The notes under the pieces: generated by a model | Seen by the model: the letters and a program-made list of their open reading frames with translations, nothing else | What the model was told of the DNA's origin: nothing | Database searches by the model: none | Source of the DNA: a virus | DNA: 49,473 nucleotides | Virus record (IMG/VR): IMGVR_UViG_3300030090_002183 | Coordinates: 12,630 to 62,102 of that record | Strand: one strand, 5' to 3' | Program-made: the position numbers and the translations under genes | Shown here: positions 11,672 through 47,562 of the stretch, in pieces | Layout: each line of letters opens with the position of its first letter | Position numbering within the stretch: position 1 is the first letter of the stretch

Positions 11672-11700
11672 TTGACTATAACTATAATATACTATATATA
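11672..11700 (+). promoter_or_regulatory. Promoter of riboswitch-peptide transcript
   Basis: TTGACT (11672-11677), 17-base spacer, TATATA (11695-11700), with the riboswitch helix beginning 13 bases later. The matching place in unit B has TTGACA at 47252-47257. Confidence 0.65.
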
Positions 11701-11712
11701 CAGTATATAACT

Positions 11713-11760
11713 CGTTCAACCTGTATGGTCGGAAGTAGCAGAAAGTCTGCGAAGGAACGC
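11713..11760 (+). ncRNA. Glutamine riboswitch (Downstream-peptide type)
   Basis: The sequence matches the conserved core of the glnA/Downstream-peptide glutamine aptamers: CGTTC (11713-11717) closes with GAACG (11755-11759); a short P2 has ACC 11719-11721 with GGT 11727-11729; CGGAAGTAG follows; P3 has GCAGA 11738-11742 with TCTGC 11746-11750; then GAAGGAACGC. The unit-B copy keeps the core but changes both arms with compensation (P3 GTAGA/TCTAC, P2 TCCC/GGGA), direct evidence for the fold. The class binds L-glutamine and controls a short downstream open reading frame, here 20 bases away. It would tie phage expression to host nitrogen state. Confidence 0.88.
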
Positions 11761-11779
11761 TAACATTGGGGGACATACA

Positions 11780-11836
11780 ATGGAAGTTATCCTTACTTAT
11801 AGAGGTGTAGCGTACAAGAAAATCCTAAAGAGGTAG
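11780..11836 (+). CDS. 18-residue riboswitch-controlled peptide
   Basis: MEVILTYRGVAYKKILKR, starting 20 bases after the aptamer. The unit-B copy (47359-47415) encodes the identical peptide although six codons differ, all silently, so translation is under selection. LTYRGVAY resembles the start of small cyanobacterial DUF4278 proteins. Downstream-peptide riboswitches are known to precede such short frames, and in cyanobacteria one controls a glutamine synthetase inactivating factor; whether this peptide acts in that way is unknown. Its end overlaps the convergent gene at 11825-11983 by 12 bases. Confidence 0.75.
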   Translation: MEVILTYRGVAYKKILKR

Positions 11837-11983
11837 TATGCGAATATGCCCTACTTCGGTAGGGCTTATTTCTATGCCGATCTGCTCACTCGCTTTTCGT
11901 ATTATCTCTTCTCTATTAAAACCTTTTACTTCAACTGTTGCTTCTTTTCCTGACTCTTTGTGAACAATACGATACATAGACAT
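11825..11983 (-). CDS. Conserved 52-residue protein opposite the riboswitch peptide
   Basis: Begins MSMYRIVHKESGKEA after AAGGGAGTT and ends TEVGHIRILPL. The unit-B copy (47404-47562) has the same length and identical ends, with differences such as T/V, N/D and EE/DE in the middle. It is probably a small beta-alpha domain. It is the last gene of the minus-strand late direction and converges on the peptide gene, with the terminator hairpin inside its 3' part. A conserved pseudoknot lies in its leader. Function unknown. Confidence 0.75.
   Translation of the reverse strand: MSMYRIVHKESGKEATVEVKGFNREEIIRKASEQIGIEISPTEVGHIRILPL
11848..11865. terminator. UUCG-loop hairpin at the convergence point
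   Basis: GCCCTAC (11848-11854), TTCG loop, GTAGGGC (11859-11865), then TTATTTCT. It sits 12 bases after the peptide stop and can act as its terminator. It also lies within the last codons of the opposite-strand gene. The copy in unit B (47427-47444) keeps the stem with one closing pair changed from G-C to G-T. Confidence 0.75.
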
Positions 11984-12611: not shown

Positions 12612-12709
12612 TACATACCTCCATAGTTCTTACCACCCATAGGTTTCTTTACAGGTTTCTTTTTCTTAGTAAACTTCTTTTTACCTTTTTTCATACTTCC
12701 GTGATCCAT
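12611..12709 (-). CDS. Small basic protein (32 residues)
   Basis: Begins MDHGSMKKGKKKF and ends with a glycine-rich GGKNYGGM. Lysine makes up over a third. It overlaps each neighbour by TAATG. Unit B has a different 36-residue basic protein at this place (48258-48368). Confidence 0.55.
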   Translation of the reverse strand: MDHGSMKKGKKKFTKKKKPVKKPMGGKNYGGM

Positions 12710-47358: not shown

Positions 47359-47415
47359 ATGGAAGTTATCCTTACATATCGAGGAGTAGCATACAAAAAA
47401 ATCCTAAAGAGGTAG
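47359..47415 (+). CDS. 18-residue riboswitch-controlled peptide, unit B copy
   Basis: Encodes exactly the same peptide as 11780-11836 with only synonymous codon differences. Another ATG at 47346 is out of frame. Stop overlaps the convergent gene at 47404-47562 by 12 bases, as in the first copy. Confidence 0.75.
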   Translation: MEVILTYRGVAYKKILKR

Positions 47416-47562
47416 TATGCGAATATGCCCTACTTCGGTAGGGTTTATTTTTATACCGATCTGCTGACTAGCTTGGCGTATCATCTCATCCCTATCAAAC
47501 CCTTTTACTTCTACTACTGCTTCTTTCCCTGATTCCTTGTGAACAATACGATACATAGACAT
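47404..47562 (-). CDS. Conserved 52-residue protein, unit B copy
   Basis: Begins MSMYRIVHKESGKEA and ends TEVGHIRILPL, as in 11825-11983; about eight conservative differences in the middle. AAGGGAGTT upstream. The hairpin with UUCG loop lies inside its 3' end, so two strands share this constrained segment. Confidence 0.75.
   Translation of the reverse strand: MSMYRIVHKESGKEAVVEVKGFDRDEMIRQASQQIGIKINPTEVGHIRILPL

Follow-up and report, generated by a model that had tools for sequence, protein, structure and literature searches.

Does a glutamine riboswitch followed by only 18 codons form a gene of its own in a marine phage, and what could such a small peptide do? We analyzed a window of 49,473 nucleotides (the whole stretch of DNA studied here, positions 12,630 to 62,102 of the IMG/VR record IMGVR_UViG_3300030090_002183), in which two such units are located (Table 1). 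Each unit spans ~160 nt and stands alone as a gene.

Table 1. Features of the two riboswitch-peptide units (window coordinates)
Feature	Position	Strand	Basis or remark
Promoter-like boxes TTGACT-17 nt-TATATA	11672..11700	+	By eye; just 5' of the aptamer
Type 1 (glnA) glutamine aptamer	11711..11763	+	RF01739; covariation in 29 relatives
Aptamer P1	11713-11717 with 11755-11759	+	
Aptamer segments CGGAAGUA and GAAG			Predicted sites of glutamine-dependent modulation
Start-codon hairpin CATTG (11764-11768)/CAATG (11778-11782)	11764..11782	+	29 relatives
18-codon ORF MEVILTYRGVAYKKILKR	11780..11836	+	Synonymous-only variation; 11 distinct loci with identical peptide
TCCTT in codons 4-5	11790..11794	+	Complementary to aptamer-core AAGGA 11752-11756; proposed ligand-free switch helix
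Convergent 52-aa ORF MSMYRIVHKESGKEATVEVKG...GHIRILPL	11825..11983	-	Kept in 11/11 loci of the class
Intrinsic terminator GCCCTAC-TTCG-GTAGGGC, T-rich tail	11848..11865	+	
Orthologous type 1 glutamine aptamer (second unit), in the record's other genome	47291..47344	+	RF01739
Second 18-codon ORF, identical peptide	47359..47415	+	
Convergent 52-aa ORF beside the second unit	47404..47562	-	
Intrinsic terminator of the second unit	47427..47444	+	

Both aptamers belong to the type 1 (glnA, RF01739) glutamine riboswitch class. The Rfam covariance model detected the first with 47.1 bits (E 2.7e-7) and the second with 52.1 bits (E 1.1e-8), above the gathering score of 35. The original prediction of a glutamine aptamer at both sites, with P2 and P3 arms that differ between the copies yet stay paired, was confirmed, but its assignment to the Downstream-peptide class (RF01704) had to be replaced. 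That class is unsupported because a permissive Rfam search of the first aptamer region returned RF01739 alone, with nothing for RF01704 even at E<=1. As a control, 14 well-known genomes were searched, and the single one positive for the riboswitch was Synechococcus elongatus. Binding of l-glutamine and regulation of the downstream ORF by the window aptamers are predicted.

The aptamer structure was additionally supported by covariation, consistent with RF01739 membership. In 29 aligned leaders of relatives, 8 of the 13 aptamer pairs were changed on both sides, including a C-G to G-C change in P1, and compensatory changes were present in P1, P2, and P3. Sliding the pairing partners by one column reduced the pairing from 98% to ~30%. 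The native leader arms in the YRG-peptide family matched better than the swapped arms (11.3 vs 9.0, sd 0.4).

The ATG starts within 20 nt 3' of each aptamer and lies in the 3' arm of a conserved hairpin, with the Shine-Dalgarno sequence (GGGGGA in the first unit) in the loop. This start-codon hairpin occurs as CAUUG/CAAUG, CAUAG/CUAUG or CAUG/CAUG in the 29 relatives, with 93% of the cells paired and 11 compensatory cells at one pair. An intrinsic terminator, a GC-rich hairpin of 7 bp with a T-rich tail, lies within ~12 nt past the peptide stop codon. A candidate promoter precedes the aptamer: a TTGAC box ~40-45 nt 5' of the aptamer recurs in most relatives, and the consensus scan flagged no promoter on the + strand at either unit. 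We also observed that the 3' end of the convergent 52-aa ORF (MSMYRIVHKESGKEA...GHIRILPL) overlaps the peptide gene (its last 12 nt) and that this ORF runs through the terminator hairpin.

The same 18-residue peptide was originally reported after both aptamers with different synonymous codons, and indeed the two ORFs differ by five synonymous and no replacement changes. The chance that all five differences are synonymous is ~7e-4 under random substitutions (0.235^5). For 25 distinct coding sequences of the family (codons 2-16), pN/pS was 0.28. The ORF is thus under selection at the protein level, and the synonymous-only differences together with this ratio support the earlier reading of a translated and selected peptide.

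A degenerate pattern covering only the peptide was run against IMG/VR and detected 39 loci, with a glutamine aptamer immediately 5' in 38 of them; some of these 38 have a variant or extended P2 and one is cut by a contig end. The family consists of 15-20-aa peptides with the consensus MEV-x-(L/F)-(N/T)-YRG-xx-Y-x-K, in which the invariance of the ATG-GAR-GTN and YRG residues is partly by construction because the search pattern required them, while conservation of the residues outside this core was not set by the pattern. Locus L149 was rejected as a family member, being a chance match in a 125-aa protein without an aptamer. A greatly extended aptamer P2 arm was seen ahead of the YRG peptide family in three loci (L122, L123, and L137). 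The blastn search of INPHARED with the riboswitch-peptide unit gave no match, and neither did tblastn with the 20-aa peptide. The minimal phage riboswitch-peptide family appears undocumented in the literature surveyed, the coverage of which is incomplete, and the link between the switch and small peptides is already known.

The nucleotide pattern of the ORF suggests a translational switch that extends into the gene. Codons 2-5 are invariant at the nucleotide level in eight alleles, including an Ile ATC codon with 3.8% usage in the window's genes, and codons 6-13 vary synonymously. All 11 loci of the window's class (MEVILT) carry TCCTT in the first 33 nt, vs 1 of 91 other ORFs of the record. 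In modeled ligand-free folds of this class, the aptamer AAGGA pairs with the UCCUU of codons 4-5, and imposing the aptamer raised the predicted unpaired probability of the AUG from 0.00-0.02 to 0.09-0.43; in most of the sister class MEVT the imposed aptamer left the AUG unfreed. The energy models behind these folds omit the tertiary contacts of the aptamer and the ligand. The AAGGA/UCCUU helix is not backed by covariation, since the aptamer already fixes its 5' strand. Codons 14-18 likewise do not vary, but this stretch is overlapped by the convergent 52-aa ORF in all 11 loci.

The capsid is closest to those of HTVC010P-type Pelagibacter (SAR11) phages (~36% identity over the full length), and the genes are arranged as in HTVC034P, with early + and late - genes that converge; both the major capsid family and the gene order place the phage in the HTVC010P type. 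The G+C content is ~30-35%. Of 11 reference phages, including nine that infect Pelagibacter, none had RF01739 above the cut-off. The psbA gene was absent from the MEV-peptide phages tested, which therefore provide no cyanophage evidence, whereas some contigs encoding longer YRG peptides did carry it. From sequence relationships, a SAR11-like heterotroph is a plausible host. The host scan of genome contigs gave a single contig, binned as Porticoccaceae; its gene content looked phage-like on inspection, and we did not count it as host evidence.

Several other explanations of the locus were considered. The two units lie in one assembled record, and the original prediction implied two copies within one phage, which would mean a true duplication serving dosage or redundancy. 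However, the record of 62102 bases has a doubled gene order: its first 27 kb are collinear with its last 23 kb at ~60-82% DNA identity, and the capsid (95% amino acid identity), portal (73%), terminase (76%), and many other genes are present twice. Of 18 related IMG/VR records, mostly 33-43 kb, 17 have one riboswitch each and the exception has two, at opposite ends. Because of the doubled gene order and the single riboswitch of the relatives, the best reading of the record is that two related HTVC010P-like genomes, ~36-38 kb, were joined in assembly, and we consider duplication in one phage very improbable. Since each copy belongs to a different genome, the two riboswitch-peptide units are orthologues, and the synonymous pattern gains weight because the comparison spans two phages. 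The unit could alternatively be a glutamine-responsive small RNA with an incidental ORF; it is short, has its own terminator, and shows the nucleotide-level constraint on codons 2-5 and 14-18. The low pN/pS (0.28), the exclusively synonymous changes of codons 6-13, and the start codon and Shine-Dalgarno sequence kept across divergent leaders argue against a non-coding RNA, leaving this reading improbable. A short ORF behind a regulatory RNA is also reminiscent of a leader peptide or attenuator for a downstream gene, but the terminator closely follows the stop codon and the neighboring gene beyond it is encoded on the other strand, so that this explanation is strongly disfavoured and has hardly any probability in our estimation.

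The original prediction also saw in the peptide a possible minimal viral inhibitor of a host nitrogen enzyme, considered here as glutamine synthetase or PII. The family shares its YRG core with the cyanobacterial DUF4278 domain (PF14105, gathering score 25.3), where it likewise forms the core. The 20-aa members gave no Pfam match to this domain and the 18-aa peptide is below the length limit, while longer riboswitch-linked phage peptides with several YRG units pass as DUF4278 (26.5-37.5 bits, E 4.9e-9 and 3e-9). The 18-20-aa peptides may thus represent one DUF4278-type unit, by resemblance rather than by a passed family test. AlphaFold predicted each YRG unit of a three-YRG peptide as a beta-hairpin, with a mean pLDDT of 62.5, too weak for a fold search; a longer YRG peptide, searched by sequence against the PDB, gave no match. 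The glutamine synthetase-inactivating factor IF17 has DUF4278 as its N-terminal part, and cyanobacterial IF17 and DUF4278 genes are under glutamine riboswitches (PMC6316151), which together with the DUF4278 scores of the longer YRG peptides favors the inhibitor. There is also precedent for phages delivering a small metabolic regulator, in that case CP12 (PMC7760959). However, a review states that IF17 can inhibit glutamine synthetase without its DUF4278 part, which has a role in stability (PMC6316151), the IFs and PirA were reported absent from marine picocyanobacteria (PMC8092223), and the likely host of the lineage is not a cyanobacterium. We therefore regard inhibition of glutamine synthetase or PII as unlikely.

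The reading we favor is an autonomous phage micro-gene that would consist of a promoter, a type 1 glutamine aptamer, an 18-codon ORF, and a terminator. Glutamine binding would stabilize the aptamer, P1 included. In the absence of glutamine, the AAGGA strand would pair with UCCUU of codons 4-5, lengthening the AUG hairpin and lowering initiation; with glutamine, this extension would be lost and the peptide made. Type 1 riboswitches turn expression up with glutamine in cyanobacteria (PMC6316151). The peptide, potentially a single DUF4278-type YRG beta-hairpin unit, would probably dock on a protein of the host or of the phage under nitrogen-rich conditions. We hold this whole model, with the ON switch and the docking peptide, to be reasonably probable. 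It describes a small testable unit that would couple a peptide of the phage to the nitrogen status of its host.

The riboswitch-peptide arrangement extends beyond the YRG family. A peptide-blind aptamer scan of IMG/VR provided 91 distinct downstream ORFs among the matches listed (119 loci), and 88 of these 91 were <=70 aa, with a median of 41 aa and none >100 aa; these lengths are approximate because the start was chosen by a best-Shine-Dalgarno rule (best start with a Shine-Dalgarno sequence within 60 nt). By a rough count, 14 of the 63 HTVC034P genes are equally short (<=70 aa). The glutamine riboswitch of these uncultured marine phages is thus found almost exclusively with micro-ORFs, which ordinary annotation misses. 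The riboswitch-linked ORFs form several unrelated families, one of them ending in DPR(L/M)QGI. The micro-ORF families (loci L003-L121) include basic proteins of 28-65 aa, for example MTLWSEYCRR..., MNRFDHLHK...GTSGY..., and MTKYQ...YIxxNPFYP, and three loci (L010, L043, and L078) carry tandem glutamine aptamers ~10 nt apart, followed by a single micro-ORF. In the Pelagibacter phage Mosig (MT647606, 92025-92250, - strand), we detected the riboswitch followed by the 51-aa hypothetical protein Mosig_00116, which resembles the metagenomic ORFs of the DPR(L/M)QGI-ending family; the pair of Mosig and SAR11 thus makes this arrangement available in culture. We tentatively suggest that glutamine riboswitches in marine phages are a general control of unrelated 15-80-aa micro-proteins, delivering nitrogen-status-gated peptides to the host, with the 15-20-aa YRG peptides as the minimal case in which the coding sequence is part of the switch.

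Glutamine riboswitches were previously described in T4-like cyanophages (PMC9964418) and in the phages Melnitz (OM43) and Mosig (SAR11) (PMC9004378). With the latter two, whose hosts are streamlined marine bacteria, the window units have the RF01739 aptamer in common (PMC9004378); Melnitz and Mosig are in contrast T4-like myophages, and the small protein of Mosig is unrelated to the YRG peptides. The Downstream-peptide (type 2, RF01704) riboswitches are likewise followed by short ORFs (17-100 aa) with synonymous variation (PMC2864571), but their model fails to match the window aptamer. The YRGVxY core is common to the phage peptide and DUF4278 (PF14105, including the IF17 N-terminus), whereas the phage peptide has one short unit and its 20-aa relatives are under detection. 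The closest parallel is the cyanobacterial type 1 (glnA, RF01739) riboswitch, which is similar in aptamer sequence and structure and also precedes DUF4278 genes, the window units being followed by a DUF4278-like ORF (PMC6316151). The window units differ from it in their non-cyanophage-like phage lineage, in an ORF of 15-20 codons, and in the proposed expression platform, which would run into the ORF itself.
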